DNA of 64,000 nt from Rufibacter immobilis (GTDB lineage: Bacteria; Bacteroidota; Bacteroidia; Cytophagales; Hymenobacteraceae), in contig NZ_RJJE01000009.1 of NCBI RefSeq assembly GCF_003721565.1, positions 372,001 through 436,000 on the forward strand. The letters are read 5' to 3'. Below, piece by piece: positions 3,253 through 63,415 of the stretch; within the stretch, counting starts at the first letter, position 1; the number at the start of each line of letters is the position of its first letter. The position numbers and the translations under genes are program-made. The notes under the pieces are model-generated. The model had not been told where the DNA came from, made no database searches, and was given only the letters and a program-made list of their open reading frames with translations.

Positions 3253-3290
3253 CGTTTAGCGGCTCTTTTTCCAAAAAGAGCCGCTAAACA
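3253..3290. repeat. 38-bp palindromic repeat, copy 1
   Basis: Arms CGTTTAGCGGCTC and GAGCCGCTAAACA pair around a T-run/CC/A-run centre. It lies 30 bp upstream of the GH74 start. Confidence 0.85.
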
Positions 3291-3416
3291 GAATTGTACT
3301 ACCTATAACCTAGTGGTAAAGATAAAGACAGCACCCAAGCCGCGGGGGTATCAAATGTTTCCAATCACGGTGCTAAATGTTACCTGCACCGTTGAAAGCA
3401 GAATAAACCAGAAAGG

Positions 3417-3454
3417 CGTTTAGGGGCCGTTTTCGGAAAAAGAGCCGCTAAACG
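3417..3454. repeat. 38-bp palindromic repeat, copy 2 (extended stem)
   Basis: Core arms CGTTTAGGGGC and GCCGCTAAACG. The stem continues 5 bp into unique flank (AAAGG before, CCTTT after). Confidence 0.85.
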
Positions 3455-3526
3455 CCTTTTCCGCTGCGGAAAGCACAGTTGGCGCAACCCAGCATTTCCT
3501 TCGGTGGATTTAGGCGGCAGTTTTCT

Positions 3527-3563
3527 GGTTTAAGGCAAATTCCTGAAAAAGAGCTCCTAAACG
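3527..3563. repeat. 38-bp repeat, copy 3 (variant II, degenerate left arm)
   Basis: The right half GAAAAAGAGCTCCTAAACG is kept while the left half has drifted to GGTTTAAGGCAAATT. This asymmetric form recurs at 41515, 44097 and elsewhere. It ends 37 bp downstream of the GH95 stop. Confidence 0.7.
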
Positions 3564-3599
3564 GAACGCTGCCTCCCTGATCTATACAAGCCGGGAAGA

Positions 3600-6062: not shown

Positions 6063-6100
6063 CGTTTAGCGCCTGTTTTTGGAAAAAGAGCCCCTAAACG
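6063..6100. repeat. 38-bp palindromic repeat, copy 4, supplies the esterase stop codon
   Basis: Arms CGTTTAGCGCCTG and GAGCCCCTAAACG. Read on the minus strand, its end gives GTT TAG, the last codon and stop of the SGNH esterase at 6094-6099. The rest lies in the spacer before GH95. Confidence 0.88.
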
Positions 6101-6780
6101 GCTTTACTTCTCTTGGCTTTCTTCTTCATCTTCTTGGGCAGCGCTTTCCGTACCTCGGCCGCCAGCAGCGCCGCCCCTTCTTCGTTGGGGTGAATGGCGT
6201 CATAGGTGAGGCTGGCTTTACCCAGGAAAGGCGTGTACAGGTCAATGGTCTGGGCCTTGGTCTGCCGCGCCACCTGCTGCACCGCCGGAATGATCTCGTT
6301 TTTCACGATGCTGCCCGTAATGCCCCACTTGTCTTCAAAGGCCGGGAGCGGCAGGCACACGTACACTTTGGGTTTGGACGGCAGGTTCTGGAAGGAGTTC
6401 ACCAACTCCACGTAGTTGGGCACAAACTCGTCTTTGAATTTCCAGTTCTGGGGTTTGGAATCATTGGTGCCCAGCTTGATGATGACAATATCGGGCTGCC
6501 AGCCCAGAGCATCTTGGTATTGAGCCTCTTTCCAGTACGGGAAGTCGCCTTTCTTGAGCAGCGTGCGGCTGCCTACCCCGTAGTTGCGCACCTCAAAAGA
6601 TTCGCCCAGCAACTGCTGCAAGGCCATGGGATACGTCTGTTTCAGCCGGGTTCCGGCCGTGATGCTGTTGCCCACGCAGGCTACCTTTATCTTGTTTTGG
6701 GCCTGGGCCTGCACCCCGATCAGGAGGCAAACCGCTACCGCAAAAGCCCGGAGGAAGGATGGGGTCATCTGGTTGTTCAT
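6094..6780 (-). CDS. SGNH/GDSL-family esterase, probable xyloglucan acetylesterase
   Basis: 228 aa with a signal peptide (cleavage near VQAQA). All four SGNH blocks are visible: GNSIT with Ser39, NYGVG with Gly, GTND with Asn106, and DAIHPNEEG with Asp194 and His197 completing the triad. This is the small single-domain periplasmic type. In this locus it most plausibly removes acetyl groups from xyloglucan oligosaccharides (inference; the substrate cannot be read from the sequence). The C-terminus is a Lys-rich tail whose last codon and TAG stop come from a palindromic repeat, so the original end of the gene may have been replaced. M5 is an alternative start. Confidence 0.87.
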   Translation of the reverse strand: MNNQMTPSFLRAFAVAVCLLIGVQAQAQNKIKVACVGNSITAGTRLKQTYPMALQQLLGESFEVRNYGVGSRTLLKKGDFPYWKEAQYQDALGWQPDIVIIKLGTNDSKPQNWKFKDEFVPNYVELVNSFQNLPSKPKVYVCLPLPAFEDKWGITGSIVKNEIIPAVQQVARQTKAQTIDLYTPFLGKASLTYDAIHPNEEGAALLAAEVRKALPKKMKKKAKRSKAV

Positions 6781-6796
6781 GGTTTAAATGGTTTCT

Positions 6797-6833
6797 GGTT
6801 CAGGCGTAATTTCGGAAAAAGAGGCGCTAAACA
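6797..6833. repeat. 38-bp repeat, copy 5 (variant II)
   Basis: Right half GGAAAAAGAGGCGCTAAAC is kept; the left half GGTTCAGGCGTAATT is diverged. It lies just upstream of the esterase start. Confidence 0.65.
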
Positions 6834-6886: not shown

Positions 6887-6924
6887 CGTTTAGCGGCTCT
6901 TTTTCCGAAAACTGCCCCTAAACG
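6887..6924. repeat. 38-bp palindromic repeat, copy 6
   Basis: Arms CGTTTAGCGGCTC and ACTGCCCCTAAACG with centre TTTTCCGAAA. It ends 13 bp before the GH2 stop. Confidence 0.85.
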
Positions 6925-9481: not shown

Positions 9482-9519
9482 CGTTTAGGGGCTGTTTTTG
9501 GAAAAAGAGCCCCTAAACG
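9482..9519. repeat. 38-bp palindromic repeat, copy 7 (extended stem)
   Basis: Near-perfect arms CGTTTAGGGGCTG and GAGCCCCTAAACG. Unique flanks extend the stem by 9 bp: CTTGCTTTC before and GAAAGCAAG after. This is the strongest case of copy-specific stem growth in the window. Confidence 0.92.
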
Positions 9520-18888: not shown

Positions 18889-18926
18889 TGTTTAGAGCCT
18901 GTTTTTGGAAAAAGAGCCCCTAAACG
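18889..18926. repeat. 38-bp palindromic repeat, copy 8 (end of composite A)
   Basis: Arms TGTTTAGAGCCTG and GAGCCCCTAAACG. Confidence 0.85.
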
Positions 18927-19486: not shown

Positions 19487-19524
19487 TGTTTTGGGTTAAT
19501 TTTCAGAAAAAGAGCCGCTAAACG
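19487..19524. repeat. 38-bp repeat, copy 9 (variant II, other end of composite A)
   Basis: Right half GAAAAAGAGCCGCTAAACG is kept; left half TGTTTTGGGTTAATT is diverged. It lies 22 bp beyond the regulator stop. Confidence 0.7.
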
Positions 19525-19546: not shown

Positions 19547-22500
19547 TCAGACGGTGGGCTGTGATTGCCGGCTTTCGGCGTAGACGGAAGGCAGCACGCC
19601 GTACTGCTCCCTGAAGTACTTGGAGAAATACCTGGGATTGTTGAAGCCCACGGCATAGGCCACCTCGGCCACGGTTAACTGGCTTTTCACCAGCAGCTGC
19701 GCCGCACGCTCCAGACGGATTTTCCGGATGAACTCCACCGGCGACTGCCCCGTGAGCGCCACAATCTTCTTGTACAGGTACACGCGGCTCATGCCCAGTT
19801 CCTTGCTCATCATCTCCACCGAGAACTCAGGGCAGTCCATGTTCTCCTCTACCAACTTGATGGCGTTCTGGATGAGCTTGTCATCCAGGGAGACAATGTC
19901 AACGGCGCTGGTCTGCACACTGATTTTCTTCCCGTACGCCTTCTGCAACAACTGGCACTGCGCAATGAGGTTGGTCATGCGGGAAAGGAGCAGCTCAAAG
20001 TTGAACGGCTTGGTAATATAGTCGTTGGCGCCAATGCCCAGGCCCTTCAGTTTCTGTTCCTCGGCGGTTTGGGCGGTGAGCAGCACAAACGGGATATGGG
20101 AGGTACGGGCATCGGCTTTAATTTTCTTGCAGAACTCTATGCCGTTCAGCTCGGGCATCATGAGGTCGCTCACAATGAGGTCTGGCATACAGGAAAGGGT
20201 CTTCTGCCAACCTTCCTTCCCGTTCTTGGCCTCTACCACCGTAAAGTGGGCACTCAGGCTCTCGCGCAGATAAGTCCTGAAATCTTCGCTGTCCTCCACC
20301 AGCAGCACGGTTAATGCATGGTCTGCTTCCGTCAAAACAGGCTTTCCCGCCACCTTGGGCACGGGCACCAGGGTCTCAGAAAGTTCAGAGGTTTCGGGCA
20401 CATCCTGTCCGGTGCCGGCCACTTTGATGGGCAGCGTAACGGTGAAGCAGCTGCCCTGGCCCAGTTCGCTCTGCACCTGAATCATGCCGCCGTGGATCTT
20501 CACGAACTCTCTGGTAATAGACAACCCAATGCCGCTGCCCTGGTTCACCAGATTGTCGGGCACGTCTTCCCGGAAGAAACGGTCAAAGATTTTTTCCTGA
20601 TTCTCTCTGGAGATCCCAATGCCCGTATCAGAAACCCTAATCTCCAGCAGGTGCAGCCCCGCCGAGGCGGAGTCGTTCTCGTGGCAGCGCACTTCCACTT
20701 TAATGTAGCCGTTCTCCGGAGTGAACTTGAAAGCGTTGGAGAGCAAGTTGAACAGGATCTTGCCCAGCTTGTCCATGTCAAAGGAAGCGTGCAGCTCCCG
20801 CACACTGGTCTCAAAGGACAGTTTCACGTGGTTTTTCTCCGATAAATCTGAGAACGAGTACACCGATTCTTTGATGAACTTGATGATGTTGCCCACCGAA
20901 GGCGCAAAGGCCACCTCCTCCACCTCCAGCTTGCGGAAGTCCAGCAGTTGGTTTACCAGATGCAGCAGGCGTTTGGCGTTGCGGTTGATCATCTGGAACT
21001 GCTTTGTCTGGTCTTCGTCCTGACTGGTAGCCAATAATTTTTCCAACGGGGCCAGAATAAGAGTGAGCGGCGTCCGGAACTCATGGCTGATGTTGGTGAA
21101 GAACTTGATTTTCATGAGGTGCAGTTCGCGCATGTGCCTCACCTCACGGCGCTCCCGCTCCAGCGCAAATTTGGCGTTGGCTTTCTGTTTCTCCACGCGC
21201 CGAACCAGTAACAGCACACCCAGCACCAGTAGAAAGTACGTCACATACGCCCCGTTGCTGCGCCAGAACGGCACCTCCACTTCAATGTTCAACTGAATTC
21301 CTTTCTGGTTCCAGACCCCGTCATTGTTGGCGGCCTTAACCTTGAGCTGGTATTGGCCGGGGTCCAGGTTGGTGTAGGTGATGCGGCGGTTGTTCCCGTC
21401 TGTGGTGTGCCACTCCTTGTCAAAGCCTTCCAGCATGTACTGGTACTGGTTTTTCTCTGAATGGAAGAAATTGAGGGCGGCAAACTCCACCGTGAACATG
21501 TTCTGGTCATGCTGGAGGGTAATCTGCTTAGTGGCCGAAAGGGCCTGGGGCAAAATAATACTGCCGTCTACCGCCTCCCCCACCCCAAGGCTCTTGCTGA
21601 ACAGCTGGAAATCTGTGAACACCATGGCCGGAGCCACCGAATTGGACCGCAACTGGTCCGGCTGAAAAATATTGAAGCCGTTGGGCCCTCCAAACACTAC
21701 CTCGCCCCGGCGGGTGAGGTACGCCGCGTTCTCATTGAAGGCTTTGCCCTGCAAGCCGTCAGATTCATCGTAACTGTGGGCTTGCAGGTACATGCTGCCG
21801 GGGTGCTGCCCTTTCACTTCCAGTTTGGAAATCCCGTTGGGCGTGCTCACCCACAGGTTCTGCTGCTGGTCCTCCAGCAGGTTGAGGATGATGTTGTCGG
21901 GTAGGCCTTGTTCTTTGGTGAACAGCCGGAACGTGTTGGTCTGAGGGTTGAACAGGTTCAGTCCTTCGTTGGTGCCTATCCACATATTGCCGCGGCTGTC
22001 CTGCAAAATGGCCAACACACTGTTGCTGCTGAGGCTGCGGGAGTTCTGGGGGGCGTTCTGGTAACGGGTCACGTTTCTGGTGTTGGCATCCAGCACCTCC
22101 ACCCCAATGTCGCCGCCCACCCAGAGGTTTCCCTTGGAGTCTTGGGCAATGGCCGCCACGTATTGCGTCTCCAGGCCTTTCTGCCGGTTGGTACGGTTAA
22201 AAGTATGGAACTTGCCGGTTTTGGGGTCCAGCAACTGCAACCCGCCGCGCATGGTGCCCACCCAAAGCCGGTTCTGCTTGTCCTGGAACAGTTCCCACAC
22301 ATTTTCATGGCTCAGGCTGAAAGGATCTTTCGGCTCCGGCAGATAACGGGTGAATTTCTGGCCATCGTACTTGTTCAGGCCGCCCAGGTAGGTGCCAATC
22401 CAAAGATTTTGCTCGTGGTCTAAGAGCAGGCTCACAATTACGTTGCTGCTGAGGCTCTTGGGATCTTTAGGATTGTGCTGAAAACGGGTGTACTGGCCGG

Positions 22501-23704
22501 TAGTCCTGTTCCAGTACAGCAAGCCGCCGCCGTTGGTGCCCAGCCAGAGGTTTCCCTGCGCATCTTCCACAAACCGGTTGATGTCATCATAGGGCAAACT
22601 GCCATTTACCGTGAGTTGGTGCTGGTGGTGCTGGAACCTGAGCAGGTTCTGGTGGTAGTAATTGACGCCTTTTTTATACGAACCTAGCCAAATAATGCCT
22701 TCACGGTCTTTGTAGATGGAGATAAGGCTGTTGTGCGAGAGGCTGTTCTTCACCTCAGGACAATTGGTGATATATCGCACCGAAAAGTCTTTCTTATTGA
22801 TGAGGTTTAGGCCGCCGTGGTCAGTGGCCAGCCACAGGGTACCGTCTTCATTTTCCACTATGCCCCGCACCAGATTAGAGTTCAGTCTGTTTAGGGGCGC
22901 ATTTTCGTAAAACTGCCTCAAAACGCGCTGTTGGGGTTTGTACAGAAAAGCCCCAATGCTCTCATAGGAAGCGTAAAGCCACAGCTCGTCGTCACGGTCT
23001 ATGGTCATCCCGTACCCCGATGGCTTGTAATTGAATTGCTTCGCTACCCTTGTCTCCCGCGCTTCCACTTTCAGGGTCTTTGCGTTTAGCTGCTCCAGTA
23101 CCCCGTTGGCATGCAAGACCCAAATGGTGCCCTGCCGGGTGAAAGCCAAGGCATTCACGTGATTGGAAGCAATAGCCGCAGTGTCTGCCGCCGCCCATTT
23201 CAACCGGGTGACTGCTTTAGTCTTAGGAGTATAGCGGCTAATACCTTGGCCATTCTGCAGGAACCAGTAGTTTCCGGCTTTGTCGGTAATGATCTCACTG
23301 ACTGGGGCCTGGGGCAGCCTGAACTTCTGCAGCAGCGGGGCATAGTTTCGGTCAAAGCGATCTTCCTGCGGGTAATAGACCGTGAGCCCTTTCTGGGAAA
23401 CGATCCAGATGTTGCCTTCAGGGTCTTCAAAGAGTTTGGTGATGTTGTTGTCGAGGAGCGAGGCCGAGGAGCGGGAGTTGTGCCGGAAAGTTTTGACGCT
23501 GTACCCGTCAAAACGGTTGAGGCCCGAGGCAGTGCCAATCCAGATATAGCCCTGACGGTCTTTCAGGAAAGCAGTGACCTGGTTATGGGACAGGCCTTTG
23601 TTCACGTCCAGGTGCAGGAACCGGTGCTGCTCCGGCAGGTTTGCCCATGCTGCGGCAAAGACCGCATGCAAGAGCATCAGGGTAAAAGTAAAAACAAGAC
23701 GCAT
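19547..23704 (-). CDS. Hybrid two-component system sensor/regulator (HTCS) of the xyloglucan locus
   Basis: 1385 aa one-protein signalling system. Signal peptide; periplasmic double propeller made of ~14 Reg_prop repeats (residues ~35-640, e.g. YIWIGTASGLNRFDGY); Y_Y_Y domain (~735-800); one membrane helix (~815-835); HisKA with phospho-His H874 in NISHEFRTPL; HATPase (GIGISRENQEKIF, GSGIGLSI); receiver with D1180 in DLIVSDLMMPE; C-terminal AraC-type HTH (GMSRVYLYKKIVALTGQSP ... VAYAVGFNNPRYFSKYF). HTCS proteins bind an oligosaccharide in the periplasm and switch on the neighbouring locus, here most likely xyloglucan oligosaccharides. Odd point: bases 22887-22925 inside the frame match the 38-bp palindrome and encode VLRQFYENAPLNR (about residues 261-273) between propeller blades. 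Confidence 0.96.
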   Translation of the reverse strand: MRLVFTFTLMLLHAVFAAAWANLPEQHRFLHLDVNKGLSHNQVTAFLKDRQGYIWIGTASGLNRFDGYSVKTFRHNSRSSASLLDNNITKLFEDPEGNIWIVSQKGLTVYYPQEDRFDRNYAPLLQKFRLPQAPVSEIITDKAGNYWFLQNGQGISRYTPKTKAVTRLKWAAADTAAIASNHVNALAFTRQGTIWVLHANGVLEQLNAKTLKVEARETRVAKQFNYKPSGYGMTIDRDDELWLYASYESIGAFLYKPQQRVLRQFYENAPLNRLNSNLVRGIVENEDGTLWLATDHGGLNLINKKDFSVRYITNCPEVKNSLSHNSLISIYKDREGIIWLGSYKKGVNYYHQNLLRFQHHQHQLTVNGSLPYDDINRFVEDAQGNLWLGTNGGGLLYWNRTTGQYTRFQHNPKDPKSLSSNVIVSLLLDHEQNLWIGTYLGGLNKYDGQKFTRYLPEPKDPFSLSHENVWELFQDKQNRLWVGTMRGGLQLLDPKTGKFHTFNRTNRQKGLETQYVAAIAQDSKGNLWVGGDIGVEVLDANTRNVTRYQNAPQNSRSLSSNSVLAILQDSRGNMWIGTNEGLNLFNPQTNTFRLFTKEQGLPDNIILNLLEDQQQNLWVSTPNGISKLEVKGQHPGSMYLQAHSYDESDGLQGKAFNENAAYLTRRGEVVFGGPNGFNIFQPDQLRSNSVAPAMVFTDFQLFSKSLGVGEAVDGSIILPQALSATKQITLQHDQNMFTVEFAALNFFHSEKNQYQYMLEGFDKEWHTTDGNNRRITYTNLDPGQYQLKVKAANNDGVWNQKGIQLNIEVEVPFWRSNGAYVTYFLLVLGVLLLVRRVEKQKANAKFALERERREVRHMRELHLMKIKFFTNISHEFRTPLTLILAPLEKLLATSQDEDQTKQFQMINRNAKRLLHLVNQLLDFRKLEVEEVAFAPSVGNIIKFIKESVYSFSDLSEKNHVKLSFETSVRELHASFDMDKLGKILFNLLSNAFKFTPENGYIKVEVRCHENDSASAGLHLLEIRVSDTGIGISRENQEKIFDRFFREDVPDNLVNQGSGIGLSITREFVKIHGGMIQVQSELGQGSCFTVTLPIKVAGTGQDVPETSELSETLVPVPKVAGKPVLTEADHALTVLLVEDSEDFRTYLRESLSAHFTVVEAKNGKEGWQKTLSCMPDLIVSDLMMPELNGIEFCKKIKADARTSHIPFVLLTAQTAEEQKLKGLGIGANDYITKPFNFELLLSRMTNLIAQCQLLQKAYGKKISVQTSAVDIVSLDDKLIQNAIKLVEENMDCPEFSVEMMSKELGMSRVYLYKKIVALTGQSPVEFIRKIRLERAAQLLVKSQLTVAEVAYAVGFNNPRYFSKYFREQYGVLPSVYAESRQSQPTV
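22887..22925. repeat. 38-bp palindromic repeat copy inside the HTCS coding region
   Basis: Plus strand reads CTGTTTAGGGGCGC, then ATTTTCGTAAAA, then CTGCCTCAAAACG. It matches the consensus at roughly 30 of 38 positions while keeping the reading frame open. It is the only copy found wholly inside a gene. Confidence 0.65.
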
Positions 23705-24165
23705 GACTATTCCTTTACTTTAGACCTTCTGCAAACCCAGCCCATTCTTTACTCTCGGCGCAAGATTTCCGGAAGGCAAAGGAACTCCGCCTCCCGGAAA
23801 ATCTTTAAGTCACAAACAACTCAATTTCTACGCAAGATAACATTTTTACCAAATTATTAGAACATTTTATAAGATATCGCAACCACAGGCCTTCATAAAT
23901 TATTTTCATTGATATTTTTTCAACACTCATTTCTCCCGGCTTGACAACCTTGATTTCTAGTAAGGGAATTTCTCATTCTATTTTTTCATGGCTTTTCTGC
24001 CAAAGCAAGCGCTTTGCGTTTAGGGGCTGTTTTTGGAAAAACAGCCCCTAAACGCAAAATTTTCACCCCATGCCTTGCGGGAACATCTCTTGGCCCCAAG
24101 CCACAGTCGCCTATGTTCCCGCCCCAAATGACATCGTTTAAAAATTGTTTCTGTAACTTTGCCCT
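23705..24165. other. Divergent intergenic region, HTCS / lpxD
   Basis: An A/T-rich spacer that must hold the promoters of both divergent genes. It contains palindrome copy 24018-24055. A TAACTTTG box at 24154-24161 sits only 4 bp before the lpxD ATG with no matching upstream TTG box, so it is not called as a promoter. Confidence 0.6.
24018..24055. repeat. 38-bp palindromic repeat, perfect-arm copy
   Basis: Arms CGTTTAGGGGCTG and CAGCCCCTAAACG are exact complements. Flanks TTTG and CAAA add 4 bp of stem. It comes close to the family consensus. Confidence 0.93.
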
Positions 24166-26614: not shown

Positions 26615-27402
26615 ACCAGCCTTTAGCCTACATTCACCCAGAAGCTAAAATCGCTACCAATGTAGTAGTGGAGCCTTTCACCACCATCTCTAAGAACGTG
26701 GAAATTGGCGAAGGCACCTGGATTGGCCCCAACGTGACCATCATGGAAGGCGCCCGTATTGGCAAGAACTGCCAGATCTTCCCGGGTGCGGTGATTTCGG
26801 CCCCGCCGCAGGACCTTAAGTACAAAGGAGAGCCCTCTACCGTTACCATTGGGGATAACACCATCATCAGAGAATGCGTGACCTTGAACCGTGGTACAGC
26901 CCTAGATAAAAACACCACCGCCATTGGTTCTAACTGCCTCATTATGGCATATGTGCACGTGGCACATGACTGTATCATTGGCAACAACGTGATTGTGGCC
27001 AACGGAGTGCAGTTGGCCGGCCATATTGTGGTGCATGACCATGTGTTCATTGGCGGAACTTCTGCCGTGCACCAGTTTGTGAGCATTGGTGCCCATGCCA
27101 TGGTGTCTGGTGGTTCTTTGGTGCGCAAAGACGTGCCGCCTTTCATTAAGGCTGCGCGCGAGCCGCTTTCCTACGCCGGCGTGAATTCCATTGGCCTGCG
27201 CCGAAGAGGGTTCACCAATGAGCAGATCAATGATATTCAGCAAATCTACCGTATCCTGTTCATGAGTGGCTTGAACACGGCCTCAGCGGTGGAGAAGATT
27301 GAGATAGACCTTTCGCCTAGCCCAGAGCGCGATGAAATCGTGAACTTTGTGCGTAACTCAGGTAGAGGCATCATCAAAGGGTACCAGAAAGATGCAGATT
27401 AA
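26611..27402 (+). CDS. lpxA: UDP-N-acetylglucosamine acyltransferase
   Basis: 263 aa, the normal LpxA length. Left-handed beta-helix repeats (IHPEAKIATNVVVEPF; IGEGTWIGPNVTI), the catalytic His region MAYVHVAHDCIIGN, the substrate loop HQFVSIGAHAMVSGGS, and the C-terminal helical part (REPLSYAGVNSIGLRRRGF). It catalyses the first step of lipid A synthesis. Start overlaps the lpxC/fabZ stop by 4 bp; its 3' end overlaps the next gene by 11 bp, so all may be translationally coupled. Confidence 0.97.
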   Translation: MNQPLAYIHPEAKIATNVVVEPFTTISKNVEIGEGTWIGPNVTIMEGARIGKNCQIFPGAVISAPPQDLKYKGEPSTVTIGDNTIIRECVTLNRGTALDKNTTAIGSNCLIMAYVHVAHDCIIGNNVIVANGVQLAGHIVVHDHVFIGGTSAVHQFVSIGAHAMVSGGSLVRKDVPPFIKAAREPLSYAGVNSIGLRRRGFTNEQINDIQQIYRILFMSGLNTASAVEKIEIDLSPSPERDEIVNFVRNSGRGIIKGYQKDAD

Positions 27403-28082: not shown

Positions 28083-28120
28083 CGTTTAGGGGCTGTTTTT
28101 CCAAAATCAGGCTCTAAACG
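28083..28120. repeat. 38-bp palindromic repeat
   Basis: Arms CGTTTAGGGGCTG and CAGGCTCTAAACG. It lies 50 bp after the ABC ATPase stop. Confidence 0.85.
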
Positions 28121-28211: not shown

Positions 28212-28249
28212 CATTTAGGGGCTGTTTTTGGAAAAACACCTCCGAAACG
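28212..28249. repeat. 38-bp palindromic repeat, right arm degraded
   Basis: Left arm CATTTAGGGGCTG is intact; the right arm has changed to CACCTCCGAAACG. Confidence 0.75.
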
Positions 28250-28279
28250 TATCCTCGCATGAACTTTCAAAAGGTAAAA

Positions 28280-28351
28280 GTAGGGGCAATCCTTGTGGTT
28301 GCCCTTTTTACCGATACCACCGTGCAGGGCAACCACAAGGATTGCCCCTAC
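28280..28351. repeat. Long inverted repeat, family 2, copy 1
   Basis: Two perfect 25-bp arms (28280-28304 starting GTAGGGGCAATCC, and 28327-28351) around a 22-bp loop. A near-identical pair of arms occurs at 60815-60914. It lies 12 bp from a terminator. Confidence 0.88.
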
Positions 28352-29733: not shown

Positions 29734-29927
29734 GGAATTAAGAGGCAATAATGAACTCCCTGCCTTTTACCCCGCATTGCCTGAGAAGGTTTACCCGTTT
29801 TAAGCCTATTTTTTCAAAAAAAGGTCAAAACTAGAATTTACCTCCAAGCGACTCCTCCTCGTTTTGTAAGCGGATTGTCTAACATTTACCGCTGGCTCAT
29901 TTCTCAAAATTCCGGCAGATCAGAAAT

Positions 29928-33666: not shown

Positions 33667-33704
33667 CGTTTAGGGGCTGTTTTTGGAAAAAGAGCCCCTA
33701 AACG
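33667..33704. repeat. 38-bp palindromic repeat
   Basis: Arms CGTTTAGGGGCTG and GAGCCCCTAAACG. It is directly behind the E2 terminator. Confidence 0.92.
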
Positions 33705-34327: not shown

Positions 34328-34365
34328 CGTTTAGCGCCTCTTTTTAGAAAAAGAGCCCCTAAACG
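34328..34365. repeat. 38-bp palindromic repeat abutting a stop codon
   Basis: Arms CGTTTAGCGCCTC and GAGCCCCTAAACG. It starts at the base after the TAG at 34325-34327. Confidence 0.88.
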
Positions 34366-37226: not shown

Positions 37227-37264
37227 TGTTTTGGGGCTAATTCCGGAAAAAGAGCCGCTAAACG
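37227..37264. repeat. 38-bp repeat (variant II)
   Basis: Right half GGAAAAAGAGCCGCTAAACG is kept; left half TGTTTTGGGGCTAATTCC is diverged. Confidence 0.75.
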
Positions 37265-37315: not shown

Positions 37316-37353
37316 TGTTTAGGTCCTGTTTTTTGGAAAAGAGCCCCTAAACG
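37316..37353. repeat. 38-bp palindromic repeat
   Basis: Arms TGTTTAGGTCCTG and GAGCCCCTAAACG. It is 50 bp from the ferredoxin terminator. Confidence 0.82.
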
Positions 37354-38939: not shown

Positions 38940-38942
38940 ATC

Positions 38943-38979
38943 CGTTTGGGGCCAATTTTGGAAAAACAGGCTCTAAACG
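38943..38979. repeat. 38-bp repeat (variant II-like)
   Basis: Arms CGTTTGGGGCC and CAGGCTCTAAACG, centre AATTTTGGAAAAA. It starts 3 bp after the acyl-CoA reductase stop. Confidence 0.8.
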
Positions 38980-41436: not shown

Positions 41437-41514
41437 ACGGCTTAGTTTCAGACTAAGTGTAAAATGGATATTAAGATTCTAGACGTTAGACTTTCGTTAT
41501 TAAGTTCCTTCGCT

Positions 41515-41552
41515 GGTCTCAGGCAAATTTAGGAAAAACAGCCCTAAAACGG
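41515..41552. repeat. 38-bp repeat (variant II)
   Basis: Left half GGTCTCAGGCAAATTT diverged; right half GGAAAAACAGCCCTAAAACG kept. Confidence 0.7.
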
Positions 41553-42104: not shown

Positions 42105-43556
42105 CTAGGCAACAATTGGGTTGTTAGAGAGCAGGCCGCTTATGCCTGTAATGGGTGCTCCAATGCGCATTCCTTCCTCATCTATTAAGATTCTGCGGAT
42201 ATAAGCATCATGTCTGGAGCCGCGCATTTTAAGCATTGTAATACTGCGTTGCATTTCACCAGTCAACTCAACATACCTCAGCAAAATGATGGTGTCTGTA
42301 ATGGTGGCAATGTCACCTTCTGTGATAGAGGCGCCTCCAGTGAGCATATGCGTAGTGGCAGAGAACATAGAGGTGATTCCCTCGTGCTTCAAAAAATTAG
42401 TGAGCGCCACCACAAATTCCTGGAACCCTCTCTCAGATGGGTTGCGGGTCAAGGCCGAAATGCTATCAATGGCAATACGGTCTGGCTTAAATTCCTGAAC
42501 AAGGTCCTGAATGTTGATCAGATGATCTTCAAGCGAGCGGACCTCTGGGTAGTTTGATACCACCTTCAGGAAGCCATCTGCCTCCAACTGTTCCAGATCC
42601 TGGCCCCATCCTTTGGCATTCCTGAAAATCTGTTCACGGCTTTCTTCAAATGCCAAGAGCAGGCAGCGCTCGTTTTTATCTTTACCGCCATTCATGAAGT
42701 TAGCGGCCAGCAGCGTTTTGCCGGCACCCGTAGCTCCGGAGACTAAGACAATAGAGCCTTTGAAAAAACCGCCACCGCACATTTGGTCTAGTTCTTGAAC
42801 TCCAGAAGTAATGCGTTGGCTTGATGAATGCTGGTTCAGGTTCATGGCAGAGACAGGAACAATCACCACCGCCTTCATGGGCACAATGGTAAAAGGGTTT
42901 TCCCCTTTCACGTGGTTGCTGCCCCTGAATTTGAGAATTTCAATAGTGCGGCGGCGTCTTTCGTTGACAAGCACGTTGCGCAGAATCATGACATTGTCGG
43001 TTAGGAATTCTTCTACTCCGTACCTTGAAATGGCCCCGTACTCTTCTGTACGCTCTGTGGTGATAATGGCCGTGGTTTTCATTCGCCTAAGCGTCATAGA
43101 CACCTTAGACATTTCCTGCCGAATAATATTGTGCTCAGGAAAGTGGGTAAAGATGCTGCCAATAGAATCAATGACTACCCGCTGGGCTTTATTTTTGATG
43201 ATGGATCTCTCCAGCCTAACCCTGAAAGCGCTTAAGTCAAATTCGCCAATGGTAATCACGTCTTCTTCTTTGGCTGAGCCGTCTACAAACGTCCACTTCC
43301 CCTCAGATTCCCATTGGTCTATGTCCCAACCAAAGCTCTTTAGATCATTTCTGATATCTTCTACCTGTTCTTCAAAGGTAACGAATACCCCATTTTGGTT
43401 GAACTTAAGAATACCCATGGCCAAGAACTGAGCAGCAAACAATGTTTTGGCACTTCCAGAACTGCCAGCTAATAATGTGGTTCGGCCAATAGGCAAACCG
43501 CCCTCTGAAATAAGATCAAAAGCCGCAATACCTGTTTCTAATTTGGGGATGTTCAT
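42105..43556 (-). CDS. kaiC: KaiC-like double-domain ATPase
   Basis: 483 aa with both RecA-type domains. CI: P-loop GSSGSAKT at 31-38 (Ala36 where Gly is usual), catalytic EE at 62-63. Linker VNERRRRTIEILKFRGSNHVKGENPF. CII: P-loop GATGAGKT at 274-281, catalytic EE at 304-305. The phosphosite segment reads SITEGDIATITDT: aligned to SITDSHISTITDT of Synechococcus KaiC, T432 is kept (T418) but S431 is Ala417; T426 is kept (T412). After that the protein ends at NNPIVA and lacks the ~20-residue A-loop/tail that KaiA binds. It should be an ATPase with at most a one-site phosphorylation cycle, independent of KaiA. Followed by kaiB. Confidence 0.93.
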   Translation of the reverse strand: MNIPKLETGIAAFDLISEGGLPIGRTTLLAGSSGSAKTLFAAQFLAMGILKFNQNGVFVTFEEQVEDIRNDLKSFGWDIDQWESEGKWTFVDGSAKEEDVITIGEFDLSAFRVRLERSIIKNKAQRVVIDSIGSIFTHFPEHNIIRQEMSKVSMTLRRMKTTAIITTERTEEYGAISRYGVEEFLTDNVMILRNVLVNERRRRTIEILKFRGSNHVKGENPFTIVPMKAVVIVPVSAMNLNQHSSSQRITSGVQELDQMCGGGFFKGSIVLVSGATGAGKTLLAANFMNGGKDKNERCLLLAFEESREQIFRNAKGWGQDLEQLEADGFLKVVSNYPEVRSLEDHLINIQDLVQEFKPDRIAIDSISALTRNPSERGFQEFVVALTNFLKHEGITSMFSATTHMLTGGASITEGDIATITDTIILLRYVELTGEMQRSITMLKMRGSRHDAYIRRILIDEEGMRIGAPITGISGLLSNNPIVA

Positions 43557-44065
43557 AAATGTGTAGCTAAAAAAATGAAGGGCAGGCCGAAAGGTATCAG
43601 GCCTATAAGTGTGATAGACTAATTGTGTTCCAGTGTCAGGAAACAGAAGCAGTAAGGAAATGTCAAAAAAGGGAGGCAGAAGGAGTTATGAGTGCCTCAC
43701 AGAGATTGGTGTATTAGTAAAGGTACTATTTTATTTAACAGCAACCTATTTAATTCTTTGAAAAGATCAAATTTATGTTATAGGAGAGTGGCTGGGAGAA
43801 GGATTGATCTATTACTTGGAGTGAAAAAACGCCTTTAGGTCAAGATATGCGCATAAACCCATATACATAGAGCCAATTTATGTTTTTTAATTTCAGTATA
43901 TGAAGAAGTTACTTGCGCGCATTTCTGCAGAAGCAAAGAAATAGTCTTATTCTAGAAGAAGAAGAAGGGAAACTTGGAAGAAGACTCTAATGGTTTCTAT
44001 AAAATAAATAATAAAAAGATATTTCGAACCTGTTTGGAGTTTTCCTTTTCAATTATTGCCAATGG

Positions 44066-44182
44066 CATGGCTGGCGCAAGCGTCCGCTTGAACCACGGTT
44101 TCAGGCAAATTTTAGAAAAACAGCCTCTAAACAGAAGCTTCCTTGCCCACTAAGGCACAAGCGGACGCTTGCGCCAGCCATG
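44066..44182. repeat. Inverted repeat (25-bp perfect arms) enclosing a 38-bp repeat
   Basis: Arms 44066-44090 and 44158-44182 are exact complements (start CATGGCTGGCGCAAGC). Between them lies a variant-II palindrome copy at 44097-44133. Parts of the arm recur at 44278 and 44464. Confidence 0.88.
44097..44133. repeat. 38-bp repeat (variant II) inside the inverted repeat
   Basis: Left half GGTTTCAGGCAAATTTT, right half AGAAAAACAGCCTCTAAACA. Confidence 0.72.
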
Positions 44183-44571
44183 AGATAAAAACTTTAAACA
44201 GCTTCTTTCTGAAGGTAATAAGAACGCAAATTACTCTAAGAGCCTATTAAAGGTTTCTCATAAATGACCTAGACGACCTAAGCGTCCGCTTTCACCTCCG
44301 TTTTAAAGCTATTTAACGCCAATTGCGATGTTCACTGTAATTTATATGGTAACCCACCCCTCCCAAGAGGGTCAGGTGGGTTAAATTCCTAGAAGATGGT
44401 AATTCGCACCTTAGATTTTTATATAAGCAGACTTAAAACAGAAACAGTCTCTCCTGTTAAAAAACAAGTGGACGCTTGCGCCAGAGAAAGAGTTTCTTTT
44501 CTACCCGGAAGAAAATAATAAACAGGCTCTTCCTAAGAAAATAGTTATCCTAGTGGCGGCAACTAAGGAGG

Positions 44572-45267: not shown

Positions 45268-45303
45268 CGTTTAGCGGCCGTTTTTCTGATTTACGGCCAA
45301 AAC
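45268..45303. repeat. 38-bp repeat (variant II, reverse orientation)
   Basis: CGTTTAGCGGCCGTTTTTC is the conserved half; TGATTTACGGCCAAAAC is the diverged half. Confidence 0.72.
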
Positions 45304-45341
45304 TATTCCGGTGCAAAAATAGGCAAAGAAAACGGAATAGC

Positions 45342-48001: not shown

Positions 48002-48039
48002 CGTTTTGGGGCCGTTTTTGGAAAAAGAGCCGCTAAACG
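48002..48039. repeat. 38-bp palindromic repeat
   Basis: Arms CGTTTTGGGGCCG and GAGCCGCTAAACG, 4 bp from the pyrF stop. Confidence 0.85.
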
Positions 48040-48871: not shown

Positions 48872-48907
48872 GGAAGGATCTAATTGATAGCGGACACAAA
48901 GCTAAAC

Positions 48908-48944
48908 CGTTTTTGCCTTTTTTTGTTGAAATGGCCGCTAAACG
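48908..48944. repeat. 38-bp repeat, degenerate (end of composite B)
   Basis: The right arm ATGGCCGCTAAACG is recognisable; the left arm CGTTTTTGCC is weak. Confidence 0.5.
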
Positions 48945-49653
48945 CAATGCTTTTAAGCTGATGCCTTGGAGTAACCGCTTGCCGCGTGGGTTCATAAACT
49001 TCACTATTCCATCTTTGGCGGTAAGCGCTCACGGCCGCGGGCCCCCTTCTTCCCCTCTCGCACTGCCCTTGCGGCCAAGCTAGTGCAGTTGGTGTTTAGC
49101 TCCCGCTATCCTTCGGCCACAAGCGAGGCGCTCGATGGGTAAGACTGGAATAGGTGCGTTTAGTAGAGGCTGTTGGAACTTGGCGGCTGAAACTCTGCTA
49201 ACGTAAACCCACCCCTACCCCTCCCAGGAGGGGAGTTCCGGTTCAAAGAGGATGAGGCGGCAATGATGGGAAAGGTGGTATAGGCGTGGAGACGGCAGAA
49301 GAATGACTGCGTGAGCTGACTTCATTAGTAATCTTTCCTTACTCGTGCAGATACTCCCCTCCTGGGAGGGGTAGGGGTGGGTTCTACGCGTATTAATCTT
49401 CCCGCGGTTCCCGGCGAGTCTGGAGACTCGCCCCATCCTTTGGCACGAGACAGAAGTCTTGCGTCAGCACTTGTTCAAACCATCAGCAGTAAGCAATCAA
49501 CAATCAACCAAAGACCTCGCAGCGTCTGGAGGACCTGTGAGCGTCTGCGCCAACTCCCGCCTCTGTCTTCCCAAATTAAGCCAAAACCAAACTCTAGACT
49601 CAGAACTCAAGACTCAGGACTTGTTTCAACCTACAGGCGTCCGCGCTGATTTG

Positions 49654-49691
49654 CGTTTAGCGGCTCTTTTTCTGGAATCTGGCCTAAAACA
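49654..49691. repeat. 38-bp repeat (other end of composite B)
   Basis: CGTTTAGCGGCTCTTTTTC half kept; TGGAATCTGGCCTAAAACA half diverged. Confidence 0.75.
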
Positions 49692-49740: not shown

Positions 49741-49778
49741 CGTTTAGGGGCTGTTTTTGGAAAAACAGCCCCTAAACG
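49741..49778. repeat. 38-bp palindromic repeat, perfect arms, extended stem
   Basis: Exact arms CGTTTAGGGGCTG and CAGCCCCTAAACG. Unique flanks GCATTTG and CAAATGC extend the stem 7 bp. It directly adjoins the next terminator. Confidence 0.93.
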
Positions 49779-54305: not shown

Positions 54306-54743
54306 GGCAAAAGAGGTTTGGGCAAAGATAAAGAATTAGCCTTCTTCTGGGGTGACCAAAGTAACTTATCTGCGGTTTTAAGAGACTTCCCTCAGCCTGC
54401 ACATCCTGACTGCGCTTTACCAGTTATTACCCGGCTCATTGACAGCAACTGTTTGCTCTCTGGCATTTTCCTCCTTCGGCCTAGGAGAACGAGAAAGTGA
54501 TACCGGTGAAATTTGGCATGTCCCATCCTCCATCTCACGGTAAGTTGCGTTTAGCGGCTGTTTTTCAAAAAAGAGCCGCTAAACGCAATGGTCTTAATTT
54601 ATCTGGGGAAAACAGTGCCTTTAAACCGTTTAAACTGGCTTTCCTCTTCTTATAGCCCAATAGATTTATTGAATAATCACAAAAAGCCAGAAATAGGCAC
54701 GGCTTTTGTAAAGCACGGCATGTACACACCAAAAGGGTAAGGA
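54306..54743. other. Divergent intergenic region, pyrD / GAF gene
   Basis: It holds one 38-bp repeat (54548-54585) and otherwise no recognisable gene, terminator or promoter. A weak variant-II-like remnant may lie at 54595-54630 (GGGGAAAACAGTGCCTTTAAACC). Confidence 0.55.
54548..54585. repeat. 38-bp palindromic repeat
   Basis: Arms CGTTTAGCGGCTG and GAGCCGCTAAACG; flanks TTG and CAA add 3 bp of stem. Confidence 0.9.
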
Positions 54744-55921: not shown

Positions 55922-55959
55922 CGTTTAGGGGCTCTTTTTCCAGAATCGGGGCCAAAACG
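55922..55959. repeat. 38-bp palindromic repeat (one arm diverged)
   Basis: CGTTTAGGGGCTCTTTTTC half kept; CAGAATCGGGGCCAAAACG half diverged. It is 7 bp after the preceding stop. Confidence 0.8.
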
Positions 55960-56785: not shown

Positions 56786-56823
56786 CGTTTAGGGGCCGTT
56801 TTTGGAAAAACGGCCCCTAAACG
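56786..56823. repeat. 38-bp palindromic repeat, extended stem
   Basis: Exact arms CGTTTAGGGGCCG and CGGCCCCTAAACG. Unique flanks GCCGTTG and CAACGGC extend the stem by 7 bp. Confidence 0.93.
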
Positions 56824-57923: not shown

Positions 57924-57961
57924 CGTTTAGCGCCTGTTTTTCCAAAAATCGGCCCTAAACG
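57924..57961. repeat. 38-bp palindromic repeat
   Basis: Arms CGTTTAGCGCCTG and CGGCCCTAAACG, centre TTTTTCCAAAAAT. Confidence 0.85.
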
Positions 57962-58171
57962 GGAACCTCATCGGGTCGATGTCTTTTTCACGATAGCAAT
58001 GTCTGCTTGCGCCTACACTGTTAACCTATATACGGAACTTGCGCCAGGGATTAGCCGGCCGCAAGTAACCGAAACCGCAGACGTACCTGCCGCCCATATT
58101 TCTCCCGGAAGAAGCCCATCAAGGAGTTGGCAACTCACTGTTAATTGGGCGCAAGCTGCCGCGCTGGTTCC

Positions 58172-58208
58172 AGTTTACGGCTAATTTGCGAAAAACGGCC
58201 CCTAAACG
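58172..58208. repeat. 38-bp repeat (variant II)
   Basis: Left half AGTTTACGGCTAATTTG diverged; right half CGAAAAACGGCCCCTAAACG kept. Confidence 0.75.
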
Positions 58209-60914: not shown

Positions 60915-60930
60915 AAGGGAAAGACCAATG

Positions 60931-60964
60931 AAAAAGCCTCACCGGTATTACCAGTGAGGCTTTT
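60931..60964 (+). terminator. Intrinsic terminator of the PBP gene
   Basis: Stem AAAAGCCTCACCGG / CCAGTGAGGCTTTT followed by CTTTATTT, 140 bp past the stop; also suitable for folB on the other strand. Confidence 0.85.
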
Positions 60965-60973
60965 CTTTATTTC

Positions 60974-61012
60974 CTGTTTAGGAGCCGTTTTTGGAAAAAG
61001 AGCCCCTAAACG
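60974..61012. repeat. 38-bp palindromic repeat
   Basis: Arms TGTTTAGGAGCCG and GAGCCCCTAAACG, 3 bp from the folB stop and 9 bp from the terminator. Confidence 0.85.
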
Positions 61013-61015
61013 CCA

Positions 61016-61387
61016 TTACAGTTGATACCACTCTTTGTTTTTCTCCAGCGTTACTTTGGCTTTGTGGCAGATGCCGCCCAGCGGTGGGTTGAACTTGGAG
61101 ACGCTCACTTTCACCTGCTCCACAAACGGGAACTCGCGGTACACGCCTTCAATGATACGGTGCCCCAGGTGTTCCAGTAAGCGGGCCGGTTGGCTCATCT
61201 CATGCAGTACCAGTTTGTAGAGCACTTCATAGTTCACCGTCTGGTCCAGGTTGTCTGAGGCGGCGGCATCTTGCAGGTCTATCTGGAGGTAGAGGTCTAC
61301 CCCGTACTTATTGCCTATTTTCTGCTCCTCATCATAAAACCCGTGGAAGGCGAAAAACTCCATGCCCTCCAGTGCAATCTGTCCCAT
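61016..61387 (-). CDS. folB: Dihydroneopterin aldolase
   Basis: 123 aa, the normal length. IALEGMEFFAFHGFYDEEQKIGNKYGVDLYLQID is the family N-terminal pattern with active-site Glu/Tyr, and the last part has LLEHLGHRIIEGVYREFPFVEQVKVSVSKFNPP with the catalytic Lys region. It makes 6-hydroxymethyl-dihydropterin for folate. It is the last gene of the WD40-DivIVA-folB unit, 9 bp behind the DivIVA stop. Confidence 0.95.
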   Translation of the reverse strand: MGQIALEGMEFFAFHGFYDEEQKIGNKYGVDLYLQIDLQDAAASDNLDQTVNYEVLYKLVLHEMSQPARLLEHLGHRIIEGVYREFPFVEQVKVSVSKFNPPLGGICHKAKVTLEKNKEWYQL

Positions 61388-61396
61388 GTAGTGCGC

Positions 61397-62422
61397 TTAG
61401 ATTTCGTCAAAGAACGAACCGCCGCTTACCGCAACCGCCGGGGCGGGTTTGGTTTGGGTGGTCATGGGCGGCTGCACCTCTGGGGTGGTAGGTACCGGTT
61501 GCTCACGCTCCGGCTCCGGTTCCTCTACAGGGGTTGGGCTTGGCGCCGGCGGAATATCTGGTTTTGGTTCCTCTCTCTTGGGAGGGTCAATGGAAGGCGT
61601 AGGAATGTGCGGTGGCACAATTTCTGGGGTGCGTGGCTGCACATCCGGGGCCGGATTGGGCGTATGGATCTCAGGGATGGTGCCCGGGGTAGACGGAATG
61701 GACTCGCGGCTGCCTCCGCCGCCAATGCCGTAGGCCTGCGGCTGGTCTGTCAACGCCGAAGCCGGAACAGGGGCCGGTTTAGCGGCTGGCGTTACGGGTT
61801 GTATGGGTGCTGTGGTGAATGCGTTCATGGTCGTATCTTTTTCGTTGTCGGGCCGTTGCACTTTTACCTGTGCGGCCCTCTGTAAGATACTGCCAATGGA
61901 GGTTTTGGGTTTTGCCTTGGTTTTCTCCACCTTGTCCAGCGCGTCGGAGGCCAGGTTCTGCAGGTCGCGCACCATGTTCTCCAGGTAGTCTTCCAGGCGC
62001 AGGTAATCCTGCTCCAGGTTCTTCACCTCCGTATGCATTTCAGACACGGTTTTCTCGGCCTGCTGATAGGCGTTCTCCAGCACCCCGTGGGCTTTCTGGC
62101 GGGCGGCTTCCAGCAGTTGGTCGGCTTTGAGCTGGGCTTCCCTAATCTGCAGATCGGCGGCTTTGGAGGCTTGTTCCACCATGCTGTTGCTGGTGTCTTC
62201 GGCGGTCTTGAGGGTTTTGTAGAGCGATGATTCCACCTCACGCAGTTTTTGGACTTCGCGGTTCGCCACTTCCAACTTCACTTTCAGGTCTTTGTTCTCG
62301 TCCTGCAACTTCTCCCACTGCTGCGAAAGCGTAAGCAGAAACGCCTGTACCTCATCTTTGTCCAAGCCCCTAAACGCTTTCTCAAACGTTTTCTGTCTGA
62401 TTTCTAACGGTGTAATCTTCAT
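61397..62422 (-). CDS. DivIVA-domain coiled-coil protein with Pro-rich tail
   Basis: 341 aa from the ATG at 62422, which overlaps the stop of the WD40 gene (ATGA). N-terminal DivIVA/GpsB signature (KITPLEIRQKTFEKAFRGLDKDEVQAFL), then a continuous coiled coil to ~190, then a long Pro/Thr/Glu-rich disordered tail (PTPVEEPEPEREQPVPTTPEVQPP) ending GGSFFDEI. DivIVA proteins bind curved membrane at poles or septa and recruit partners. The C-terminal PxxP repeats could be partner sites (inference). Confidence 0.88.
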   Translation of the reverse strand: MKITPLEIRQKTFEKAFRGLDKDEVQAFLLTLSQQWEKLQDENKDLKVKLEVANREVQKLREVESSLYKTLKTAEDTSNSMVEQASKAADLQIREAQLKADQLLEAARQKAHGVLENAYQQAEKTVSEMHTEVKNLEQDYLRLEDYLENMVRDLQNLASDALDKVEKTKAKPKTSIGSILQRAAQVKVQRPDNEKDTTMNAFTTAPIQPVTPAAKPAPVPASALTDQPQAYGIGGGGSRESIPSTPGTIPEIHTPNPAPDVQPRTPEIVPPHIPTPSIDPPKREEPKPDIPPAPSPTPVEEPEPEREQPVPTTPEVQPPMTTQTKPAPAVAVSGGSFFDEI

Positions 62423-63351
62423 ATTTCCTTCAAGGTTAACGCCCAAACCGCAATGCTGCGGTCATCACTACACGAAACTAACTGATTCCAATGACCCGAC
62501 CAAAACAATTTGTTCACGGAGGTGCCGTGCCCCGCGTGCCGGGCTTTGTCTATCACTTTTAAGAGTTTGAAGGTTTGGGCATCCCATACCTTCACAGATT
62601 TATCCATGCTGCAGGTGGCAAACAGCCGCCCGTTGGGGCTGAACGTGATGTGGTTTAGGGTAAACAGGTGGGCAATGACGCTGGTATGCTCTTGGTAGTG
62701 TTGGGTTACGTCCCAGACGCGTAAATGGGCATCGCGGCTGCCGCTGAGCAGGTAGTTTCTGTCTGGCGTGTAAGCCACCGTGAACACAGAACCGGTGTGC
62801 CCGGCCAAGGTCTGCTTTACTGCCAGAGTCTCCAGGTCCAGCACCAGAATCCTATGGTCGCTCAGGCCAACGGCCATCTCTTTTCCAGACGGGTGCAGCG
62901 CCAGGCAACGGACGCTTTTCTCAGAGAACCGCACCACTTTCTGCACGTCCAGCTTCTCTAACCCCACCACCGCCAACGTTCCGTCACCTAGCGCTAAAAA
63001 GATTTGCCGCCGTTCCCAGGAATAATGGATATCAAAAATGGCGGCAGCAGCGGGCAGCGGAATGGTTTTCACAATGGCTTTCGCGGCTAAATCCAATACC
63101 TCCAGACTGTTGTGGTTGTGCCCAATGAGCAGCCAGTTCTGTTCTGGCACGTATTTGAGCGCGTACACGCTGCTACTCACGCGAGCTACCAGCTCACCAT
63201 TCTCGGGTTGGCTCAGATCCCATTGCACTACGAGGCCATCGGCCCCGGCCGAGAAGAACTTCTGGGGTTCAGGAGCCCGCTCCAGCGTGTAAACGCAGTC
63301 GCGGTGACCGGTGAGCGTGGTGATTTTCTGAACCTGAAACGGGCTGGCCAT
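62419..63351 (-). CDS. WD40-repeat beta-propeller protein
   Basis: 310 aa with about seven WD40 blades (LTGHRDCVYTLER; GADGLVVQWDL; LAGHTGSVFTVAYTPDRNYLLSGSRDAHLRVWD; GRLFATCSMDKSVKVWD; LVSCSDDRSIAVWAL). No signal peptide, so cytosolic: a scaffold rather than an enzyme. Directly coupled to the DivIVA-domain gene by a 4-bp overlap, so the two probably work together. Confidence 0.92.
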   Translation of the reverse strand: MASPFQVQKITTLTGHRDCVYTLERAPEPQKFFSAGADGLVVQWDLSQPENGELVARVSSSVYALKYVPEQNWLLIGHNHNSLEVLDLAAKAIVKTIPLPAAAAIFDIHYSWERRQIFLALGDGTLAVVGLEKLDVQKVVRFSEKSVRCLALHPSGKEMAVGLSDHRILVLDLETLAVKQTLAGHTGSVFTVAYTPDRNYLLSGSRDAHLRVWDVTQHYQEHTSVIAHLFTLNHITFSPNGRLFATCSMDKSVKVWDAQTFKLLKVIDKARHAGHGTSVNKLFWSGHWNQLVSCSDDRSIAVWALTLKEI

Positions 63352-63380
63352 GGCGTATAGAAAAGTGGTGGGAACCTATT

Positions 63381-63415
63381 TTTGCCTAAATTTACCAAAA
63401 ACAGCTCATAAACCC
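63381..63415. repeat. Degenerate 38-bp repeat remnant (variant II)
   Basis: GCCTAAATTTACC then AAAAACAGCTCATAAAC resembles the variant-II form with several mismatches. It lies in the 84-bp divergent gap before the phosphopantetheinyl transferase gene. Confidence 0.4.

Follow-up and report, generated by a model that had tools for sequence, protein, structure and literature searches.

Short palindromes that lie between bacterial genes in many copies are usually read as mobile parasites or as RNA hairpins. Repetitive extragenic palindromic (REP) sequences, in the part of one account considered here (PMC3733652), are extragenic palindromes of 20–40 bp with a high copy number. A family that fits this description by size and location (38 bp, 222 copies in 464 kb, only seven of them in called genes) occurs in Rufibacter immobilis, where we analyzed a stretch of 64,000 nucleotides (contig NZ_RJJE01000009.1, positions 372,001 to 436,000; hereafter “the window”) and then the genome around it and those of related species. 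Here, the positions appear to be fixed by descent, the sequence words of the palindrome arms change in concert, and most of the transcription-unit ends examined are occupied. Our best explanation, which we hold tentatively and at a little under an even chance, is that the palindromes are vertically inherited DNA elements marking the 3′ boundaries of transcription units, i.e., a putative boundary element read by a protein.

An initial annotation of the window had claimed about 32 copies with common arms and a T5-GG-A5 centre, and both observations proved sound. The half-site CGTTTAGGGGCTG, with at most two mismatches, has 42 matches in the window, whereas 100 shuffles average 2.1 and never exceed seven, and an iterated symmetric 38-position weight matrix (PWM) finds 33 copies between positions 3253 and 63414 (Table 1), with no score above 7.4 bits in the reversed window. 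The length is fixed at 38 nt. The consensus, whose arm is CGTTTAGGGGCTGTTTTT, reads alike on both strands, with T runs before the centre and A runs after it. The family reaches well beyond the window: a strict 36-base pattern occurs 544 times genome-wide, and not once when the pattern is read backwards. The 464 kb that surround and include the window yielded the 222 copies, with no control matches, and by extrapolation the 4.77-Mb genome has ~2300. The annotation placed all but one of the copies in the window between genes; a single copy does lie within a called gene (19547–23704), although another overlaps a stop region by 7 nt, the rest being intergenic. It was also right that the window has no transposase, insofar as no such domain was found at E ≤ 1e-5 in 39 window open reading frames (ORFs) compared with Pfam, a scan of the window outside 1–765, 25220–26614, 26611–27402, and 63436–64000. 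No RNA family in Rfam matched the window at gathering scores.

Below, G000 is the genome of the window (G000:C1:372001-436000), and congeners are cited by number (G002–G014). Congener figures come mostly from 60- to 200-kb pieces of eight of the 15 congeners; wider coverage underlies the counts of the own-species pattern, of Y1_Tnp and HU/IHF matches and of hits to a sequence-only model, as well as the gaps compared by eye.

The element marks the ends of transcription units, without replacing terminators. In five species, it is present in 114 of 124 convergent gaps of at least 100 nt. Among gaps of 100–249 nt, 70 of 73 convergent ones are occupied and 10 of 58 divergent ones; at 60–99 nt, the occupied share is 14 of 20 for convergent gaps and 19 of 75 for tandem ones, and tandem gaps shorter than 60 nt are occupied in 8 of 172 cases, many of these gaps being too small for 38 nt. 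Of the tandem and convergent copies in G000, 46 of 196 start 0–9 nt past a stop codon, and divergent gaps hold 20 of the 222 copies. The element itself is not an intrinsic terminator as usually defined (a GC stem followed by a U-run), given that its T runs precede the centre and its A runs follow it. We rejected the idea that it takes the place of such terminators, because their frequency is no lower in the genus (present at 182 of 380 convergent ends across nine genomes) than in other genera (16 of 44 across six genomes). Rather, terminators are commoner at ends with the element in eight of nine genus genomes (e.g., 64 of 183 versus 12 of 71 without it in G000). Where a gap has both, the terminator precedes the element in 45 of 69 tandem gaps and in 55 of 100 convergent gaps (four species each). 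The polarity of the better arm (stop-proximal in 207 of 377, p = 0.06, with G000 and G014 leaning one way and G012 the other) was not used.

Occupancy is shared between species. For orthologous gaps of at least 60 nt, scored as occupied in both genomes, the first only, the second only, or neither, the counts are 65, 2, 3, 28 for G004/G014; 50, 3, 7, 20 for G000/G002; 44, 0, 6, 20 for G000/G010; 43, 0, 8, 18 for G000/G014; 47, 4, 3, 26 for G000/G005; 40, 2, 4, 15 for G002/G010; 27, 2, 2, 13 for G002/G014; and 12, 1, 1, 9 for G006/G013. G000 and G012 have two orthologous gaps in common within the stretches compared. The remainder of the gap aligns at only 0.53–0.56 between G000 and G002, G010, G014, and G005. 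At the level of sites, 66 of 73 G004 elements align onto a G014 element. Insertion polymorphism between these two species would be sought in the five discordant gaps, none of which shows a clean empty site; they are rearranged, low scoring, or unalignable. The copies thus do not look like recent insertions.

Within the element, a symmetric frame stands out: TT at positions 4–5 and 15–16 and AA at 23–24 and 34–35 (TT-N9-TT-N6-AA-N9-AA), that is, at distances of ~4 and ~15 bp from the dyad on both sides, with the two steps on each side one helical turn apart. For G004/G014, elements were aligned into the partner genome in both directions, and detection of a partner copy was not required. Identity at the eight frame bases reaches 543 of 576 and 522 of 544, whereas TT/AA elsewhere in the same gaps has identities of 0.767 and 0.755; the other positions of the element (0.71 and 0.73) do not differ from the rest of the gap (0.71 and 0.72). 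Frame identity is 0.99, 0.81, and 0.90 in G006/G013, G000/G002, and G000/G005, against 0.72, 0.58, and 0.59, respectively, and in G000/G005 the non-frame positions are slightly above the gap (0.59 versus 0.52). It should be noted that these tests, like those of pairing below, used copies found with the PWM, a choice that biases the query genome toward frame bases. The alignments indicate constraint on the frame in all pairs tested; the words between are free in G004/G014, elsewhere perhaps not.

The words have their own history. The initial annotation distinguished a “variant II” with one half kept and the other altered, and concluded that there were two subfamilies. Such copies exist, but as hybrids: an old arm stands beside a new one, and the 222 copies in G000 comprise 86 with two new arms, 96 with one, and 40 with none, where independence predicts 81, 106, and 35. 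They are better read as arms that change separately, on the evidence of these counts. Bases within one G000 arm are strongly linked. The new G000 word is private (268 of 446 arms, versus 0–13 in each of eight other species), and so is that of G012 (105 of 188 versus 0–3 per other species). Above random identity to the orthologous arm, old G000 arms retain 1.2–1.9 of 19 bases (four species) and new arms 0.2–0.5, although fewer variable positions in the latter limit the comparison. The sites, by these alignments, are old and the new words young.

Two further ideas were considered and rejected. Single arms do not behave as units, since solo arms are near control (11 versus 16 in G000), with small excesses in G014 (see below) and G004 (15 versus 8 at one threshold). 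In the case of conversion that carries flanks along, loci share little sequence past the element: the best flank match between G000 loci is 11.62 versus 11.30 expected, and flanks with at least 14 of 20 matches number 20 versus 6.5 expected in G000, 8 versus 2.0 in G012, and 2 versus 1.7 in G014, a modest excess. Among the 13 G000 flank pairs listed, four involve elements flanked by a second element, and two at 17–18 of 20 are unexplained.

The family is characteristic of the genus. The G000 pattern itself occurs in 0–15 copies in each of 15 congener genomes and in none of 102 genomes of other genera; in public contigs, the matches listed for the exact pattern include Rufibacter sediminis, R. 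latericius, another Rufibacter, and Sabulibacter ruber. With a 38-position matrix adapted to each species, the seven genus members sampled first have 38–69 copies per 100 kb (reversed controls gave 0–8 matches), G002 and G010 have 66 and 63, and the consensus arm differs by species (CGTTTTCGGGCTCATTTC in G012, CGTTTTTGGCCTGTTTTC in G013). A sequence-only model built from 102 copies has at least 68 scored candidates in all 16 genus genomes; at most 68 were scored per genome, under strict filters, so the result shows saturation rather than counts. None of 82 other genomes is saturated: half of them (41) lack any match at E ≤ 0.1, and the other 41 have 1–17, nearly all weak, the best being in G035 (9.5e-8, a single site) and G022 (2e-6). 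De novo, palindromes that are T-rich on the left and A-rich on the right number 18 in G006 and 25 in G013 (60 kb each); seven genomes of other genera have 0–2 of this build in 20–60 kb, and six of the seven have terminator-type palindromes. A related family in G072 was rejected, as the loci examined for its weak model matches have a palindrome of opposite build or none. The G035 site (L153, 1501-1536) is one element-like palindrome in a genus otherwise without the family, possibly acquired by transfer. Searches of open-licence full text for Rufibacter and Hymenobacteraceae gave no paper whose title concerns such repeats or palindromes, which does not establish their absence from the literature.

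One alternative is an RNA hairpin at mRNA 3′ ends: in transcripts that read through it, the element would fold into a stem that terminates transcription, is cleaved, or stops 3′ exonucleases, a role suggested for REPs. This agrees with the copies that start just past stop codons. Mean arm pairing relative to swapped arms ranges from z = −0.7 to 5.1 in seven species, and is at 3.1–5.1 in four of them; in nine species, the folding of true arm pairs is better than that of swapped ones by 1.4–3.8 kcal/mol; and the covariation score of 102 genus copies is 0.221 versus 0.146 shuffled, partly owing to species structure. However, the pairing distributions look like mixtures in which a near-perfect class carries the excess. 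Copies with at least 15 pairs are over-represented (observed versus expected: 13 and 1.3 in G014, 11 and 1.1 in G002, 8 and 2.2 in G010, 26 and 11.9 in G005, 4 and 0.6 in G004), as are those with 17 of 17 pairs in G000 (23 versus 7.2). When only copies with up to 14 of 17 pairs are considered, pairing is alike for true and swapped arms in G002 (9.84 and 9.84), G004 (9.41 and 9.34), and G014 (9.57 and 9.58), and true arms pair less well than swapped ones in G000 (10.80 and 11.24) and G012 (11.77 and 12.40). We tentatively attribute the better folding of true pairs to the perfect class and its flanks. Perfect copies have copy-specific paired flanks, and the first four flank pairs match at 0.78, 0.91, 0.91, and 0.78 where the new arms are identical, versus 0.40, 0.31, 0.45, and 0.27 in copies with one new arm. 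In addition, folding is weaker than −8 kcal/mol for 45% of the copies in G004 and 34% of those in G014, conservation is highest at A/T steps and not at the GC pairs on which a stem would depend, the T runs are in the 5′ arm (the reverse of a canonical terminator), the element is often past the terminator, and 20 of the 222 G000 copies are in divergent gaps. The suggestion in the initial annotation of an mRNA 3′-end stabiliser is therefore weakened by the pairing of most copies and by the order of terminator and element, whereas the folding of true arms still speaks for it; overall, we consider an RNA hairpin unlikely as the main explanation, yet deserving of some weight.

We regard as rather improbable a REP/REPIN-like selfish family, mobile or rewriting its copies in place by arm copying between loci and extragenic by selection, for all that it would account for thousands of copies, a species-specific consensus, strong linkage within arms, and lineage-specific words that are loose in some species and uniform in others. 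The initial annotation had proposed a REP/BIME-like element moved by a genome-encoded Y1 transposase, and to look for a REP-associated tyrosine transposase (RAYT) gene flanked by the repeat. G000 has a single Y1_Tnp match (L059:16655-17200, 181 aa), ~17 kb outside the window, and it is a RAYT by NCBIfam (98.7 bits, cut-off 80) with NHLH and YIHQNP, motifs listed for a Bacteroidetes subclass in the portion of PMC6006769 consulted. The nearest palindromes, however, are ~260 bp away on either side, and the immediate flanks of the gene are not multi-copy in 464 kb. Upstream of it are GGATTTAnnAATCC-like inverted repeats. G006 has no Y1_Tnp match at E ≤ 0.001, although the element is present there at 38 per 100 kb; each of the remaining 15 genus genomes has 1–6. 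GTAG/CGTC tags are absent as a signal, with 12 and 3 of 446 in the 12-nt end windows of G000 (background 0.029 and 0.022), and are at or below background in G012, G005, and G013 also. Taken with the gaps shared by descent, these results do not sustain the proposed Y1-driven movement, and we rejected RAYT mobility as a sufficient cause. Against a selfish family of any kind stand also the few discordant orthologous gaps, the little flanking sequence shared between loci, G000 arms that change singly rather than as whole elements, and the conserved frame. More remote still, and in our judgement very improbable, is a signal of the DNA uptake type, in which biased uptake and recombination would drive arms toward a receptor-read word, with dialects as in Neisseriaceae. 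It would explain dialect-like words in many copies, and inverted pairs at gene ends recall the inverted DNA uptake sequences (DUS) at terminators described in the part of PMC3630211 considered here. But a DUS would also occur as a solo motif and within genes (the latter as the same part of PMC3630211 has it), whereas solo arms are near control, seven of 222 copies are in genes, and in G004/G014 the frame, not the word, is conserved.

A DNA-bound boundary element, by contrast, is suggested by the conserved place, the constrained symmetric A/T frame, the weak dependence on pairing, and the coexistence with terminators taken together. In the mechanism that we envisage, the TT/AA frame would be read on double-stranded DNA by a putative protein dimer or tetramer common to the genus, and the bound protein would hold the boundary between neighbouring units, as a roadblock to read-through, an anchor against the spread of supercoiling, or both; this role would stand beside that of ordinary intrinsic terminators. 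One word would give way to another a single arm at a time, and template switching, a mechanism for quasipalindrome correction (parts of PMC8794818 and PMC7202029), may perfect some palindromes. For the rewriting of words, which is confined to certain lineages, changed protein specificity and arm copying are both candidates. The wider proposal of a genus-wide boundary system, in which an invariant TT-N9-TT-N6-AA-N9-AA frame would be read by a putative protein at nearly every unit end while lineage words are rewritten arm by arm at ~2000 fixed sites, we consider possible, if doubtful.

Of the three options in the initial annotation, a protein or nucleoid binding site fits best. A length of 38 nt brings to mind the footprint of HU/IHF. 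That family (PF00216), the sole candidate looked at, has one to two matches per genome, in the genus and in other genomes alike, so a gain of HU/IHF in the genus was rejected. This is one of several points that weigh against the boundary element. The agreement of gaps follows partly from gap type, because most unit ends are occupied, and absence from gaps shorter than 40 nt is partly geometry, because a 38-nt element hardly fits. The gene and terminator calls come from our own scripts. Terminators are no commoner with the element in G013 (6 of 22 versus 3 of 10), and in tandem gaps of G014 alone the order is even (terminator first, 8 versus 9). True arm pairs do fold better, as noted above. 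G012 arms are positively associated (44, 30, and 20, versus 37, 44, and 13 expected), and in G014 solo arms exceed their control by a small margin (48 versus 28, and also 18 versus 4). The in-between positions of the 10 elements in G006/G013 are at 0.82 versus 0.68 for the gap, so the words may be constrained there. Finally, words drift in G004/G014 and are uniform in G000 and G012, a combination not predicted by a plain binding-site model.

Table 1. Copies of the 38-nt element in the window, with PWM score and number of paired arm positions
Position	Arms and setting	Score (bits)	Arm pairs
3253..3290	both new	55.1	16/17
3417..3454	both new	54.6	14/17
3526..3563	hybrid old/new	31.6	7/17
6063..6100	both new; 7-nt overlap with stop end of ORF 6094-6780	58.1	14/17
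6796..6833	hybrid old/new	33.9	10/17
6887..6924	both new	53.4	14/17
9482..9519	both new; palindrome extends into flanks CTTGCTTTC/GAAAGCAAG	61.2	16/17
18889..18926	both new	56.7	13/17
19487..19524	hybrid old/new	39.5	10/17
22888..22925	hybrid; sole copy within called gene (19547-23704)	41.3	11/17
24017..24054	perfect, divergent gap; most congeners have a related palindrome at about the same place (by eye)	62.1	17/17
28083..28120	both new, convergent gap; congener gaps compared	56.3	14/17
28212..28249	degenerate; same convergent gap as 28083..28120	46.9	13/17
29796..29833	both old	31.0	10/17
33667..33704	both new	61.2	16/17
34328..34365	both new; starts at base directly 3′ of stop codon	56.2	15/17
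37227..37264	hybrid old/new	46.5	11/17
37316..37353	both new	49.7	13/17
38942..38979	hybrid; stop codon 2 nt before	42.0	9/17
41514..41551	old-type	25.7	9/17
44096..44133	hybrid old/new	39.1	10/17
45268..45305	hybrid, weak	15.5	5/17
48002..48039	hybrid (T6 arm + new arm)	55.5	13/17
48907..48944	hybrid, weak	24.0	8/17
49654..49691	hybrid	39.8	8/17
49741..49778	perfect palindrome, flanks paired	62.1	17/17
54548..54585	both new, divergent gap	55.7	16/17
55922..55959	hybrid; stop codon 7 nt before	46.0	10/17
56786..56823	perfect, convergent gap, flanks paired	57.2	17/17
57924..57961	both new, divergent gap	50.9	14/17
58171..58208	hybrid; old arm near-identical in G002	37.9	9/17
60975..61012	both new, convergent gap; 3 nt off stop codon	54.2	13/17
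63377..63414	old-type; left arm near-identical in G002	19.9	8/17

The window has other repeats as well. An inverted repeat, GTAGGGGCAATCC...GGATTGCCCCTAC, lies at 28276–28345 between an element and a terminator; it is dispersed, with blast pieces in G000 (eight in 464 kb), G010 (12 in 200 kb), and G004 (11 in 200 kb), and several congeners have similar sequence in the corresponding gap. A dispersed repeat of ~150 bp at 49008–49155 gave 12 blast pieces in the 464 kb from G000, as well as many matches in G002, and another with a GGCGAGTCTGGAGACTCGCC core (49404–49469) has seven in the same 464 kb and many in G010. The region 44061–44486, which has no called gene, contains short repeats with CAAGCGTCCGCTT or GCGGACGCTTGCGCC (families D6, D8, and D15). 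By Pfam, 42105–43556 encodes a KaiC-type ATPase and 28453–29748 an erythromycin-esterase-domain protein.

With this family one can ask what separates neighbouring bacterial transcription units, by what means thousands of scattered sites are altered jointly while staying in place, and with what frequency natural palindromes are perfected by template switching. Several known systems resemble it in part. Correction of quasipalindromes by template switching, as treated in parts of PMC8794818 and PMC7202029, matches the excess of near-perfect palindromes and the pairing into copy-specific flanks seen here, but would account for the perfect minority only and not for the spread of words between loci. 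The DUS dialects of Neisseriaceae (again from part of PMC3630211) likewise have thousands of copies, words that shift between species, and inverted pairs at gene ends; the element differs in being two 19-nt arms at fixed spacing, with solo arms near background and few copies in genes. Intrinsic bidirectional terminators are also inverted repeats frequent in convergent gaps, whereas the element is T-rich on the left and A-rich on the right, is without a U-run after the stem, and has ordinary terminators present too. With REPs, bacterial interspersed mosaic elements (BIMEs), and REPINs, it has in common that it is a short extragenic palindrome with many copies, near gene ends, and with a consensus particular to the species. 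It departs from them in lacking a GTAG/CGTC tag, in showing no dependence on a RAYT, and in occupying gaps common to species, and also in filling nearly all convergent gaps of at least 100 nt and conserving its TT/AA frame.

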